Shown here in pieces: positions 16,101-42,470 of a DNA stretch of 64,000 nt. A model generated the notes under the pieces. The model did no database searches and was not told where the DNA came from. It saw only the letters and a program-made list of their open reading frames with translations. This DNA comes from Gammaproteobacteria bacterium (lineage in GTDB: Bacteria > Pseudomonadota > Gammaproteobacteria > UBA4575): contig JANQOB010000009.1 of NCBI GenBank assembly GCA_028279275.1, positions 1 through 64,000 on the forward strand. Reading direction: 5' to 3'. Numbering within the stretch: the first letter of the stretch is position 1; each line of letters starts with the position of its first letter. The position numbers and the translations under genes are program-made.

Positions 16101-17423
16101 ATGAGTTTATTTAAACAAATATTAGATAAAGGCTTTGTTATGAGTAAACGAGTATTGTCACTTTACTTACTTCTAATGATAGCTATACCTGGGATTGCAC
16201 TTGCGGAGGATGTTCTTGATACAGGAGATACATCGTGGTTACTTACATCCACTGCACTTGTTTTGTTTATGACCATACCAGGTCTATCACTTTTTTATGC
16301 TGGTTTGGTGCGTAGTAAAAATGTCCTCTCTGTTTTGATGCAATGTTTCAGTATTACCTGCTTAGCATCAATTGTATGGCTAGTGTTTGGATACAGTCTT
16401 GCATTTGGTGAAGGAAATAGTTTGGTTGGAGATTTTTCTAACTTATTTTTAAAAGAGGTTACTCGTGATGCTTTAAATGGCACGATTCCTGAAAGTGTAT
16501 TTGTAATGTTTCAGATGACTTTTGCCATTATTACACCTGCGCTCGTAGTGGGTGGATTTGCAGAACGCATGAAATTTTCATCCATGATGTGGTTTTCACT
16601 GTTATGGCTCGTAGTCGTTTATTTCCCGGTGTGTCATTGGGTATGGGGCGGTGGCTGGTTAGCAGAAAAAGGAGTGCTTGATTTTGCAGGTGGATTAGTT
16701 GTGCATTTAACTGCTGGAGCTGGAGCAATTGTTGCCGCAATGGTATTAGGAACTCGTAAAGGATTTCCAAGAATTGCCATGCCGCCACACAATTTAACCA
16801 TGTCAGTAACCGGTGCCGGCATGTTGTGGGTCGGTTGGTTTGGGTTTAATGCTGGAAGTGCAGTGGCTGCTAGTGGAGATGCAGGTATGGCCATGTTAGT
16901 CACACACATTAGTGCAGCAACAGCATCATTAGTTTGGATGTTTGCCGAATGGGTAAAATATGGCAAACCTAGTGTGTTAGGCATTGTGACAGGTATGGTT
17001 GCCGGTCTTGGCACGATTACTCCGGCCTCAGGTTTTGTGGGTCCAATAGGTGCACTCATAATTGGTGCTTCAGCGGGTCTCATTTGTTTCACTGCAACTA
17101 ACTTCTTAAAACGTGTACTCAAAATTGATGATTCGTTAGATGTTTTTCCTGTACATGGTGTCGGGGGAATTTTAGGAACCATTCTCGCCGGTGTATTTGT
17201 TGCTGAACAATTTGGTGGGGCAGGTCTTGCAGAAGGCATGACTATTGGGTCTCAAGTGGGTGTGCAAGTCATAGGCGTAGTGGCTGTTCTAGTTTGGACA
17301 GTTGTTGCAACCTTTATTATTTTACAAGTTGTTAAGTTACTTGTTGGTTTACGAGTCGACGAACAACAAGAAACTGAAGGGCTGGATATCACTCAGCACG
17401 AAGAGACGGGATATAATATGTGA
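16101..17423 (+). CDS. amtB: Ammonium transporter
   Basis: 440 residues with a signal-like N-terminus and about 11 membrane segments, typical of Amt proteins. It conducts ammonium/ammonia into the cytoplasm and is gated by GlnK. The twin pore histidines are His202 (VVHLTAG) and His352 (PVHGVGG). GGGWLAEKGVLDFAGG and WVGWFGFNAGS are family signatures. A second ATG at 16140, also preceded by AAAGG, would give the more usual N-terminus (MSKRVLSLYLLLM). I keep the upstream start because of its AAGGGAA site. The gene is followed at once by an unusual hairpin array. Confidence 0.95.
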   Translation: MSLFKQILDKGFVMSKRVLSLYLLLMIAIPGIALAEDVLDTGDTSWLLTSTALVLFMTIPGLSLFYAGLVRSKNVLSVLMQCFSITCLASIVWLVFGYSLAFGEGNSLVGDFSNLFLKEVTRDALNGTIPESVFVMFQMTFAIITPALVVGGFAERMKFSSMMWFSLLWLVVVYFPVCHWVWGGGWLAEKGVLDFAGGLVVHLTAGAGAIVAAMVLGTRKGFPRIAMPPHNLTMSVTGAGMLWVGWFGFNAGSAVAASGDAGMAMLVTHISAATASLVWMFAEWVKYGKPSVLGIVTGMVAGLGTITPASGFVGPIGALIIGASAGLICFTATNFLKRVLKIDDSLDVFPVHGVGGILGTILAGVFVAEQFGGAGLAEGMTIGSQVGVQVIGVVAVLVWTVVATFIILQVVKLLVGLRVDEQQETEGLDITQHEETGYNM

Positions 17424-17467
17424 GCATAGGAATATGCGAATAAGAGTAGCAACAGGGATGTTGCTAC
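17424..17467 (+). repeat. Double GGA-loop hairpin directly after the amtB stop
   Basis: The first base after the stop begins a hairpin with stem GCATA/TATGC and loop GGAA. After the linker GAATAAGA comes a second hairpin with a 9-base-pair stem GTAGCAACA and loop GGGA. The second loop region, ACAGGGATGT, matches the core of the CsrA consensus (ACARGGAUGU). Related modules follow bioD (18878-18921, minus), the thioredoxin gene (29288-29327) and the SpmA/B-like gene (41206-41239, minus). Confidence 0.7.
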
Positions 17468-17532
17468 AAATTAAAGTCTGTTAGGTTCAAATCGAAAGCA
17501 GGTTGGAAAATTCAAATTAGATCTATTAAATG

Positions 17533-17603
17533 TCCGCTAACGACCGCCAAGGATGGCGGAAGTGCAGAAATTGCAGGAGCAAATTTCTGTCGACCAAAGC
17601 GGA
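17533..17603 (+). repeat. Branched palindromic repeat, long form
   Basis: An outer stem TCCGCT/AGCGGA encloses two hairpins. One is CCGCCA, loop AGGA, TGGCGG (17544-17559). The other is CAGAAATTGC, loop AGGA, GCAAATTTCTG with one bulge (17565-17589). A second, longer copy lies at 41045-41166 on the minus strand. The outer parts match the short palindrome family seen at 30447, 31734 and elsewhere. This accounts for most of the 304-base gap between amtB and ada; no gene is seen there. Confidence 0.65.
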
Positions 17604-17727
17604 TATAGCTCGTACCTGATAAGCTCCAAAATAGATAGTATTTAAAATTGCTTGTAAAGTTTTCGAATGTATCAACTGCCATTAACTCGTATAGTACCTA
17701 TCAGTTTAATTAAATTTGAGTAATTAA

Positions 17728-18765
17728 ATGCTGCTTGATAATCAAACAATGTATGACGCTTTTGTTAGAAAAGACCATTCCTTTGAAGGTGCTTTTATCA
17801 TTTGTGTCAAAACTACCGGCATATTTTGTAGACCAACCTGTACTGCCCGAAAAGCAAAAGTGGAAAATGTTGAGTTTTTTCCTACTACTAAAGAAGCGTT
17901 GGATCATGGGTATAGACCATGTCAGGTCTGTCAGCCTATGGAGTTATATGGGGAAACACCCTCATGGATTAAGAAAATATTAAATGAAGTTAAAACTTAT
18001 CCTGATATTAAATTAAATGACTATGAATTAAAGCAAAAAGGAATTGACCCTGCCAGGATTAGAAGATGGTTCAAAAAACATCATGGCATCACGTTTCATG
18101 CATATTTAAGGTCTCTAAGAATTAATCGCGCCTTTGGCCAGATAAAACACCACCATAAAGTGATTGATACTGCGCTAGACAATGGTTATGAATCATTAAG
18201 TGGGTTCAATGAAGCATTTAAAAAGGCAACAGGATTCGCACCTTCTGATTCAAAAAATGAAAATATTGTGACAATAACAAGAATATCAACACCGATAGGC
18301 CCTATGTTTGCTGGGGCAACCGAAGAAGGTATCTGCCTACTTGAATTTACAGACAGAAGGATGTTGGAAACTCAAATTAAGAGATTACGAAAATTATTAA
18401 AAGCAGAGTTTGTTCCTGGAGATAACGATCATTTCCAAGAATTAGACAAACAACTAAAAGAGTACTTTGATAAAAAGAGAAAGACATTTGATCTTCCGCT
18501 GGTAGTCCCCGGTACTAAATTTCAACAAAAAGCTTGGGATATGCTTCAGTGTATTCCGTATGGTGAAACACGCACCTATCAACAACAAGCAATCGATATA
18601 GGAAAACCTAAAGCCGTAAGAGCAGCTGCAACTGCAAATGGTGATAACAGAATATCAATTATCATTCCTTGTCACCGAGTCATTGCTAAAAGCGGTGAAT
18701 TAGCAGGTTATGGAGGAGGACTTTGGCGTAAACAATATCTTTTGGAATTAGAAAGTAATGCTTAA
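17728..18765 (+). CDS. ada: Bifunctional Ada: methylphosphotriester/O6-methylguanine-DNA methyltransferase and activator
   Basis: 345 residues (E. coli Ada has 354). The N-terminal zinc domain has Cys34, Cys38, Cys65 and Cys68 (FCRPTC and RPCQVC); by analogy one of the first pair accepts methyl groups from DNA phosphotriesters. An AraC-type helix-turn-helix region spans about residues 95-175. The C-terminal Ogt domain carries the suicide-acceptor motif IIPCHRVI with Cys315. Known Ada proteins repair alkylated DNA and, once methylated, activate alkylation-response genes. It stands alone, 304 bases after amtB and convergent with bioD, so it may regulate itself. Its ribosome-binding site is weak. 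Confidence 0.94.
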   Translation: MLLDNQTMYDAFVRKDHSFEGAFIICVKTTGIFCRPTCTARKAKVENVEFFPTTKEALDHGYRPCQVCQPMELYGETPSWIKKILNEVKTYPDIKLNDYELKQKGIDPARIRRWFKKHHGITFHAYLRSLRINRAFGQIKHHHKVIDTALDNGYESLSGFNEAFKKATGFAPSDSKNENIVTITRISTPIGPMFAGATEEGICLLEFTDRRMLETQIKRLRKLLKAEFVPGDNDHFQELDKQLKEYFDKKRKTFDLPLVVPGTKFQQKAWDMLQCIPYGETRTYQQQAIDIGKPKAVRAAATANGDNRISIIIPCHRVIAKSGELAGYGGGLWRKQYLLELESNA

Positions 18766-18829
18766 ATTAAAAAATCAAGAATTGTTTAATGGAGTCAATC
18801 TATACGGAACTTAGTTTCACATTGAATAA

Positions 18830-18849
18830 CCGCTTATGGCCTTAAGCGG
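18830..18849. terminator. Hairpin between convergent ada and bioD
   Basis: A perfect 7-base-pair stem CCGCTTA/TAAGCGG with loop TGGCCT, followed on the plus strand by the AT-rich CTATATTTAAA. It resembles the short CCGCT...AGCGG palindrome family and may serve as a terminator for ada. Confidence 0.5.
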
Positions 18850-18877
18850 CTATATTTAAAACACATAACTTTAATCT

Positions 18878-18921
18878 GAAACAACTTCCATGTTGTTACT
18901 CTTATTCGCACATCCATGTGC
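18878..18921 (-). repeat. Double GGA-loop hairpin 25 bases after the bioD stop
   Basis: Read on the minus strand: hairpin GCACAT-GG-ATGTGC, then linker GAATAAGAGT, then hairpin AACAAC, loop ATGGAA, GTTGTT. It aligns with the module after amtB. A G-C pair in the second stem there is an A-T pair here, so both sides changed together. Confidence 0.65.
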
Positions 18922-18945
18922 TGACCATCAAGCCAATGCAGATAT

Positions 18946-19623
18946 TTATCTTGCTGAGCTAATTAAGTGTTCAATGATTGGCGAATTACTTCCGATAGTT
19001 TCATTATTTGAAACCATAAAAATTGGAACATCTAAAAAACTTTGTAAGTCCTCATGATTGTTCATCGCTTTATCATGAGGTGAGTTTCTACTATTTAAGA
19101 TAATTGCGTTGAGCGTTAAGCCTCTTTGCTGAATTGCTTCCACAGTTAATAAAATATGGTTAATGCATCCTAGCTGATCGTTTGCTACGAGTAATACAGG
19201 GAGTTGCAATGTTTCTGCAAGATCAGCGTTTAAGCCATTTTCACAAAGTGGCGAATAGAAACCCCCAGCACCTTCAACCACAAGAAAGTTTTTATCAGTT
19301 ACATTAACTAGACAGGCTTGTTTAGTTTCTTTAACACTAATGGGTTTGTTCGCTAGGCGTGCTGCACGTTGTGGTGATATGGCTGGCTCAAAACGAAATG
19401 GACAAATTTCTGATAGCGGATTTTTTTTCTGAATCGCTTCATAGTAGCGATTTGCATCATCAGGATGTAATGATCCGTCGATACGTTCACAACCCGATTC
19501 GATAGGTTTGCGTGGCACAACATCAACTTCCAGATCATGTAATCGCGCTACGATTTGTGCACCAATGTAGGTTTTGCCTACATCAGTATCCGTGCCGGTA
19601 ATAAATAATCCTTTTTTTATCAC
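18946..19623 (-). CDS. bioD: Dethiobiotin synthetase
   Basis: 225 residues. It closes the ureido ring of dethiobiotin from diaminopelargonic acid, carbon dioxide and ATP, the penultimate step of biotin synthesis. The P-loop GTDTDVGKT lies at residues 10-18. RKPIESGC and VEGAGGFYSPL are further family motifs. The other bio genes are not in the window. The gene diverges from the TetR regulator, and the doubled operator lies 46-83 bases before its start, so the regulator could affect it, though this may be coincidental. Confidence 0.93.
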   Translation of the reverse strand: MIKKGLFITGTDTDVGKTYIGAQIVARLHDLEVDVVPRKPIESGCERIDGSLHPDDANRYYEAIQKKNPLSEICPFRFEPAISPQRAARLANKPISVKETKQACLVNVTDKNFLVVEGAGGFYSPLCENGLNADLAETLQLPVLLVANDQLGCINHILLTVEAIQQRGLTLNAIILNSRNSPHDKAMNNHEDLQSFLDVPIFMVSNNETIGSNSPIIEHLISSAR

Positions 19624-28750: not shown

Positions 28751-29287
28751 ATGAAGCGCACTTATACAATTTTGTCTTTTATTTTTGCAATAGTCGCTAG
28801 CACGGTGGTTTATGCAGCAAAAGTGAATCCTCCTGCGCAAATGCCTGAATTTACTCAAGTTGATCAAGCTGCATGGATCAATTCAAAACCATTGGTAGTT
28901 AATGATCTACGTGGCAAGGTTGTTTTGATCGATGTATGGACCTACGGTTGTTGGAATTGCTATAACTCATTTCCTTGGTTAAGAAGTGTTGAGGAAAAAT
29001 TTGCTGATCAAGAGTTCACAGTTATCGGTATTCACACACCAGAGTTTGATCATGAGAAAAAACGTGAAAATATTGTTAAAAAAGTAGAAGAATTTATGTT
29101 GCATCACCCCGTGATGATTGATAACGACTTTGCATATTGGCGTGCCTTGCGCAACAAATATTGGCCTGCGTACTACATCGTTGATAAGCAAGGTAACATT
29201 CGAAAAGGATTTATTGGCGAAACTCACGAAGGTGATCGCAGAGCGAAAAAGATTGAAAAATTAATTGCACAGCTACTTAAGGAATGA
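28751..29287 (+). CDS. Periplasmic thioredoxin-fold protein (TlpA/DipZ-like)
   Basis: 178 residues from the ATG at 28751, with AGAGGA six bases before it; a GTG at 28733 inside the previous gene is less likely. The signal peptide runs to about YAAKV. The redox site is Cys-Trp-Asn-Cys in WTYGCWNCYNSFPWL, followed by the thioredoxin strand FTVIGIHTPEF and the cis-Pro region WPAYYIVDKQG. The W-T-Y-x-C-x-N-C pattern is that of the C-terminal domain of DipZ and related peroxide- or disulfide-handling proteins. It is probably an exported thiol-disulfide protein with an unknown partner. Confidence 0.88.
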   Translation: MKRTYTILSFIFAIVASTVVYAAKVNPPAQMPEFTQVDQAAWINSKPLVVNDLRGKVVLIDVWTYGCWNCYNSFPWLRSVEEKFADQEFTVIGIHTPEFDHEKKRENIVKKVEEFMLHHPVMIDNDFAYWRALRNKYWPAYYIVDKQGNIRKGFIGETHEGDRRAKKIEKLIAQLLKE

Positions 29288-29327
29288 GCGCATGGATGCG
29301 CGAATATGATGTCCATCAGGGATGATG
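29288..29327 (+). repeat. Double GGA-loop hairpin directly after the thioredoxin gene
   Basis: Starting with the first base after the stop: GCGCAT-GG-ATGCGC, linker GAATATGATGTC, then CATCA, loop GGGA, TGATG. Twenty-two of 24 bases (29294-29317) match the minus strand at 41211-41234. Confidence 0.65.
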
Positions 29328-29410
29328 TTTCCGATTAGAGTTAAGTGATCTAAAATGAACAACAGATAGGAAGAGTCAATTGTGCTATTCAATCTCAAAA
29401 GGATCTAATA

Positions 29411-41166: not shown

Positions 41167-41205
41167 GAACAATTTATTTTCAGCTAATTCTAGTCCGTTG
41201 AGTCG

Positions 41206-41239
41206 TTGCAGATGAACATCATATTCTCGCATCCCTGCG
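41206..41239 (-). repeat. GGA-loop hairpin module after the SpmA/B-like gene
   Basis: Read on the minus strand, two bases after the stop: CGCA, loop GGGA, TGCG, then AGAATATGATGTTCATC. It is nearly identical to the module after the thioredoxin gene (29288). The second hairpin is degenerate here. With the long repeat, it accounts for most of the gap 40994-41240. Confidence 0.55.
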
Positions 41240-41240
41240 G

Positions 41241-42470
41241 TTAGGCAAAGAACCAATAGCCTAGTGTAATAGCGGCGATGATTCCTGCTAGGTCTGCAAA
41301 CAATCCACAGCCAATCGCATGTCGCACACGATTGATACCGACACTCCCAAAATATACAGCTAAAACATAAAAAGTTGTTTCAGTGCTGCCTTGTACAATT
41401 GCGGCTACGTTGGCGGCAAAAGAATCTACACCGTAGTTGTTCATAGTTTCTAATAACATTGCGCGTGCTCCACTGCCTGAGAACGGACGCATTAATGCTG
41501 TGGGTAAGGCTGCAATAAAGTCCGGATTTAAACCAAGTGCTATTACAACTTTTTCAATACTTTTCAGCACAATATCCAATACCATGCTGGCACGAAGTAC
41601 GCCAATAGCCACGAGCATGGCAACTAAATAAGGAATAATTTTGAGTGCAACATCAAAACCTTGTTTTGCGCCATCAATAAACGCGTCATAAACATTAACT
41701 TTGCGTAAAAATCCCATTACGAGAAATGTAATGATGATTAAAAGTAATAGTAAATTACCAAGTAGGCTGGATCGCTCTGCAAGTGATACAGAACTTTCGC
41801 CTAGTAAAAAAGCAAGTAACAAGCCGATTAAAGCTCCAAAACCCAAAAGGTAAAATAATACAGTTTTGTTAAATAAATTTAGGCGTTGTATGAATGCAAC
41901 AATGAGTAAACCCGCTAGAGTAGAGCAACAAGTGGCAAGAAGGATGGGAATGAATACAGCAGTAGGGTCTACGGAACCTTGTTGTGCACGAAATAAAAAA
42001 ATTGTGACGGGTAATAAAGTTACCGACGATGTGTTGAGTACTAAAAATAGAATCTGAGCGTTGCTGGCAATTGCTTTATTTGGGTTCAGTTCTTGTAAAT
42101 CCTGCATTGCTTTAAGGCCGAGTGGGGTTGCAGCATTATCTAAACCCAGCATATTCGCAGCCATGTTCATTGTGACCGATCCTATCGCGGGATGATTGCT
42201 TGGAACTTCCGGCATAAGTTTTTTAAACAGAGGGCGGAATGCTTTTGTAAGTAACTCAACGAAGCCTGCGCGTTCTGCAATAGTGAAAAACCCCAACCAT
42301 AGACACAATACTCCAACTAAACCTAGGGCAATCTCGACACTTAAAGAAGCCATGTCGAATGTGGCCTGCACGACCTGTGCAAAGATGCCATTGTTATCAC
42401 GAACAAAAAATTGATAAATACAGCTTAGAAACGCTGCTAAGAAAAATCCGAGCCAAATATAGTTAAGCAT
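41241..42470 (-). CDS. SpmA/SpmB-type nucleoside-recognition membrane protein
   Basis: 409 residues, about 10 membrane helices. It joins two Gate (nucleoside-recognition) domains, corresponding to SpmA followed by SpmB of sporulating bacteria. Motifs are SVEIALGLVGVLCLWLG, NMAANMLGLDNAATPLGLKAM in the first half and ALMRPFSGSGARAM, QGSTETTFYVLAVYFG in the second. Such fusions are frequent in non-sporulating Gammaproteobacteria; their substrate is unknown. The 3' end carries the hairpin elements described separately. Confidence 0.88.
   Translation of the reverse strand: MLNYIWLGFFLAAFLSCIYQFFVRDNNGIFAQVVQATFDMASLSVEIALGLVGVLCLWLGFFTIAERAGFVELLTKAFRPLFKKLMPEVPSNHPAIGSVTMNMAANMLGLDNAATPLGLKAMQDLQELNPNKAIASNAQILFLVLNTSSVTLLPVTIFLFRAQQGSVDPTAVFIPILLATCCSTLAGLLIVAFIQRLNLFNKTVLFYLLGFGALIGLLLAFLLGESSVSLAERSSLLGNLLLLLIIITFLVMGFLRKVNVYDAFIDGAKQGFDVALKIIPYLVAMLVAIGVLRASMVLDIVLKSIEKVVIALGLNPDFIAALPTALMRPFSGSGARAMLLETMNNYGVDSFAANVAAIVQGSTETTFYVLAVYFGSVGINRVRHAIGCGLFADLAGIIAAITLGYWFFA

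Follow-up and report, generated by a model that had tools for sequence, protein, structure and literature searches.

Behind four unrelated genes of the 64-kb window, the whole stretch of gammaproteobacterial DNA analysed here, stands the same short module of hairpins with GGA in their loops, which raises the question of whether it is an RNA element under selection, a dispersed repeat or a form of transcript end, and what might read its loops.

Four copies in the window

Copy 1 (17419–17479, plus strand; R1 match, 71.5 bits) lies directly 3′ of amtB, whose stop codon ends at 17423. It comprises hairpin 1 (GCATA-GGAA-TATGC, 17424–17437) and hairpin 2 (GTAGCAACAGGGATGTTGCTAC, 17446–17467), the latter likewise with a GGA loop. 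Copy 2 (18866–18926, minus strand; 70.0 bits) is placed 24 nt past bioD (stop codon end at 18946), with hairpin 1 at 18908–18921 and hairpin 2 at 18878–18899. Copy 3 (29283–29343, plus strand; 73.0 bits) stands directly 3′ of a gene assigned by Pfam as thioredoxin-like/AhpC-TSA (stop codon end at 29287), with its hairpins at 29288–29301 and 29314–29327. Copy 4 (41185–41245, minus strand; 50.8 bits) follows a gene with a Pfam Gate domain (nucleoside recognition; stop codon end at 41241), and has an intact hairpin 1 (41228–41239) and a degenerate hairpin 2. The TGA stop codons of amtB and the thioredoxin-like gene are supplied by copies 1 and 3 themselves.

Read directly from the sequence, all four sites carry the module that an earlier note on this DNA had described, three of them with the second GGA-loop hairpin, and the distances of 0, 24, 0 and 1 nt that it gave between stop codon and first hairpin agree with the stop coordinates. 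The compensating G-C to A-T change that it saw between the second stems at 17446 and 18878 is also correct, but another pair there is broken (T-T). A covariance model built from 24 copies, the four in the window among them, finds all four at E <= 1e-14, with the next best match at E = 2.9. Folded one sequence at a time, copy 1 gives a clear result (z = -5.0) and the other copies a weak one, and such folding is therefore not used as an argument for the element.

Structure, spread and position

The complete element is about 60 nt long and consists of GTGAG near the stop codon, hairpin 1 with an A-N-GGA loop, a GAATAwGA linker, hairpin 2 with an N-GGA loop, and an AU-rich tail. In several copies, the upstream reading frame crosses hairpin 1 and ends at the TGA of the linker. 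The A of the first loop is 95% conserved, the next base is free (0.3–0.4 bit), and the GGA carries 1.25–1.8 bits; the linker and the ATTAAA-like tail are conserved to the same degree as the GGA or little below it. A distance of 26–27 nt separates the two GGA motifs in 80 of 85 copies, and predicted stability differs widely from copy to copy. Three loci in the congener G003 (L125:2999-3109, L131:2928-3038 and L132:2926-3036) show a variant form, in which an insert bearing two extra GGA-loop hairpins (TGTGCAGGATGCACA, GACAGGATGTC) takes the place of the hairpin 1 loop.

Both stems covary strongly, and the earlier note had proposed covariation. The 24 starting copies contain 37 double-change cells, versus 18 after shuffling and a maximum of 18 after sliding. 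Among 136 copies from nine genomes, in an alignment fitted to the covariance model and thus leaning towards it, double changes occur at all 14 pairs (224 cells versus 92 shuffled and no more than 99 slid). An unbiased scan of loop triplets is dominated by AT-rich loops and carries little weight, as the stretches scanned had been picked for elements.

The genome from which the window derives (G000, 2.70 Mb) contains 24 matches to the pattern GGATGYGNGAATANGA with at most one mismatch and none to the reversed pattern, a result that, with the E-values in the window, places the copies beyond chance repeats. The covariance model finds about 42 good copies there (>26 bits), 24 of them the sequences used to build it. 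Matches in relatives number 31, 13 and 25 in three genomes of the same genus (G001, G002 and G003, respectively) and 35 in G007, from another genus of the same family. By model searches the element is confined to this one GTDB family; outside it, 276 sampled genomes of the class gave weak single or double matches only, a few of them with the same two-hairpin plan in a different sequence. A scan of named genomes, a set from which close relatives are possibly missing, returned no match to the pattern, and the AmtB relatives in named genomes, all from uncultured or distant gammaproteobacteria, have no credible match near amtB. Open-access papers, where searched, yielded no account of the repeat. 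A single-hairpin pattern, run on 299 genomes of the phylum, exceeded its reversed control in nearly all groups, other classes included, and was discarded because it measured composition along with hairpins.

Position was assessed with genes from a home-made hexamer gene caller. Of 40 copies in G000, 31 have their upstream gene in sense (p = 0.0007 against one half), a count in which short genes overlooked by the caller may hide some sense cases. The earlier note's statement that copies always run along transcription holds in the window but reaches only this proportion genome-wide. A sense stop codon falls within -40 to +30 nt of stem 1 in 27 of 40 copies (simulated mean 4.7; 99.9% point 12), and an antisense stop codon is equally near the 3′ side in none of the 40. 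Copies sit in convergent rather than divergent gaps by 14 to 1, where the background ratio is 41 to 85. G001 has the same gene-end bias (11 copies near stops versus 2.4 under the null), it is marginal in G003 (7 versus 3.2), and the stop-proximity counts of G007 and G002 show none relative to the null. The sense-strand gene-end placement seen in G000 and G001 is not matched by an orientation bias in G003 (upstream gene sense for 13/22 copies) or G007 (13/23), so that sense transcription may not reach many copies in these two genomes. For G000, it is well supported that the element is a dispersed RNA under selection at the 3′ ends of genes. The opposition that the earlier note had drawn between a selected element and random repeats stands as to selection, given the strong covariation, but the copies also make up a dispersed repeat family that turns over between congeners.

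CsrA-type loops

Beyond what had been noted before, the loops match the consensus of CsrA/RsmA sites. In vitro, E. coli CsrA selects RUACARGGAUGU with the GGA in a short hairpin loop (PMC7652899), and CLIP-seq gives an AuGGAug motif in a short stem-loop (PMC5694010). The element agrees with such sites in motif, in loop placement and in the pairing of sites; ANGGA in a short hairpin loop, by which a CsrA-binding RNA is recognised, is present in it. Stem-closed CANGGAYG occurs at 6.7 per kb in elements, a density that is partly by construction since the covariance model contains the motif; over the same stretches, the remaining intergenic DNA has 0.05 per kb and coding DNA 0.004. The reversed-loop control is absent from elements. 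G000 encodes one canonical CsrA, near-identical to the E. coli protein over residues 1–57. Almost all of the family has the gene, genera that lack the element among them, so its co-occurrence with the element is uninformative. Some stems, with 9 pairs in copy 1, are longer than the short stems favoured in SELEX. The conserved linker and AU tail also count against reading the element as a CsrA site, because CsrA binding leaves them unexplained.

From motif, geometry and the near-identical CsrA, we infer binding of the element by CsrA as the best reading. The whole reading, a dispersed 3′-UTR CsrA-binding repeat serving as decoy or tether, is given about even odds (roughly 0.5). On this reading the element would spread within a mosaic intergenic repeat and be retained mainly where it lands just 3′ of a stop codon; retention there leads to the expectation that unrelated mRNAs carry it as their 3′ UTR. 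The two GGA loops, given their spacing, would most likely hold one CsrA dimer, such that each tagged mRNA tail would add a double site to the cellular CsrA-binding pool, and CsrA bound beside the AU-rich tail may, in addition, shield or mark the mRNA 3′ end. A more tentative extension, which we regard as rather unlikely, is that a self-spreading repeat placing ready-made CsrA double sites behind stop codons has turned mRNAs into a distributed CsrA sponge that replaces or works beside CsrB/RsmZ sRNAs, with CsrA activity tracking the total expression of all tagged genes. A dispersed repeat with a conserved double CsrA-type site behind dozens of genes would in itself connect many mRNAs to one regulator in a novel manner, and a repeat family would be seen in the course of being domesticated, or of spreading, as an RNA-protein binding site.

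Turnover, rival readings and known systems

The surroundings of copies 1 and 2 differ between congeners. Between amtB and bioD (17424–18945) lies 1.5 kb that is absent in two congeners; it contains an ada-type methyltransferase gene (17728–18765, plus strand) and is bracketed by the two copies, which point inward and are too different for fresh terminal repeats. In the congeners G003 and G001, amtB ends in TAG or TAA and is followed by one intrinsic terminator common to the convergent bioD, and no such terminator is found 3′ of amtB in G000. At other, orthologous gene ends (those of the 341-aa, 470-aa, 247-aa and 173-aa genes) the element is present in both G000 and G001, and at the 247-aa gene, stem 1 is GCAT/ATGC in one genome versus GCGC/GCGC in the other with the GGA loop kept. 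Further gene ends differ, as those of the 691-aa gene (relative to G001) and the 451-aa gene (relative to G003) do. Gene ends partly common to and partly differing among congeners thus show both turnover and retention of the element.

The element also belongs to a mosaic. At 17530–17606 (plus strand), sequence, folding and the other copies define an associated module in which palindrome arms ATGTCCGCT and AGCGGATAT surround two more GGA-loop hairpins (17544–17559 and 17564–17589), and further copies of this second repeat occur in G000, G001 and G003. The mosaic joins the element to a ATGTCCGCTTTCGGCCAATAGCGGACAT-like palindrome and to the second repeat, both hairpins of which are GGA-looped; its other modules have different stems, with ANGGA loops too. 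On six contigs of G000 (C3, C5, C8, C11, C15 and C17), ten pairs of matches, weak ones among them, are spaced by less than 3 kb, and in nine the two face each other (plus then minus). G001 has a near-perfect 40-nt palindrome, TGTCTGCTACGACCACCATgAATGGTGGTCGTAGCAGACA, directly 3′ of a stop codon (L157:3100-3160).

Such features suit a non-autonomous mosaic intergenic repeat of the REP/MITE type, spreading at the DNA level and tolerated or targeted at gene ends, with hairpins for mobilisation or 3′-end protection and GGA loops read by a factor other than CsrA. Some 40 copies that come and go between congeners, the mosaic, the inverted pairs (one of them around the ada insertion, at the site of the congeners' terminator), the conserved linker and tail, and the lack of orientation bias in G003 and G007 are all consistent with this origin, but strong covariation with fixed GGA loops and a sense-stop bias in G000 that has no antisense counterpart are not, and the alternative as a whole is possible rather than probable. 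A Y1/RAYT transposase, moreover, was found in none of five genomes searched, one of them complete, the ground on which REP/RAYT systems were rejected. The element resembles REP and BIME sequences as a dispersed intergenic hairpin repeat arranged in mosaics, and it differs from the REP palindrome (PMC2817692) in its tandem direct hairpins and fixed GGA loops. An identity as attC sites was set aside, as copies occur in both orientations on many contigs.

Hairpins directly 3′ of stop codons, at amtB in the very place of the congeners' terminator, might instead form an mRNA 3′ end, stabilising against 3′ exonucleases or associated with Rho, that replaces intrinsic terminators and has no role for CsrA. 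We consider this improbable: a plain stabiliser could do without an invariant GGA and a free N in its loops, and the predicted stability is far from uniform among copies. The sense strand, besides, has no T run at the element, as the earlier note had observed in arguing that it is not a plain intrinsic terminator, a candidate rejected here on the same ground. A weak terminator on the opposite strand, where hairpin 2 is followed by CTCTTATTC, is highly improbable: the reverse strand at 17467–17446 scores as terminator-like and the linker's conservation would be accounted for, but the T tract is interrupted, often as CTCATATTC, and placement is fixed to the sense stop codon and not to an antisense gene.

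The preferred reading, a 3′-UTR repeat that CsrA would bind, can be set beside RNAs already known. At gathering thresholds, Rfam places no family in the window; across 20 loci, no credible family falls on the element, and relaxed thresholds add nothing credible but sub-threshold TwoAYGGAY (RF01731). The best score of this family is 23.0 bits (E 0.49), short of its cut-off of 43 bits, and its best matches in the genomes, all sub-threshold at 18–23 bits, coincide with copies of the element. TwoAYGGAY shares Rfam clan CL00106 with RsmY and RsmV and has been proposed as a CsrA binder (PMC4333381). It has two hairpins with A-Y-GGA-Y loops; the element has two GGA loops in which, relative to AYGGAY, G and A outnumber T and C at the N and the final base is variable. 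The TwoAYGGAY model, however, spans 168 positions with a long outer stem, most of which the best alignment shows as deleted or mispaired, and the element, for which no outer stem is present, is therefore not filed as a member; its conserved linker, gene-end placement and dozens of copies per genome set it apart as well.

CsrB/CsrC and RsmX/Y/Z sequester CsrA with several GGA-loop hairpins, which the element resembles, but they are dedicated sRNA genes with many sites per RNA, whereas the element has two sites per copy and occurs in many copies, most of them 3′ of genes. In four genomes, no match to the RsmZ model exceeds its cut-off, and the CsrA sRNAs of Alcanivorax are two single loci. Two arrays of GGA-loop hairpins were encountered farther afield: one with other stem sequences, behind a terminator, in an Ectothiorhodospiraceae MAG (L179:2255-2480), and a weakly RsmV-like run (12.6 bits) at the centre of locus L268 in G355, a gammaproteobacterium of another family. 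In E. coli, CLIP-seq found CsrA bound to mRNA 3′ UTRs, with AuGGAug in a short stem-loop as the enriched motif (PMC5694010); those are seven individual peaks with no known effect and, unlike the element, no repeat family. Against CsrA decoys that have so far been a few dedicated sRNAs, and 3′-UTR binding in E. coli that has no known role, the element offers a concrete, testable case for CsrA function in 3′ UTRs.
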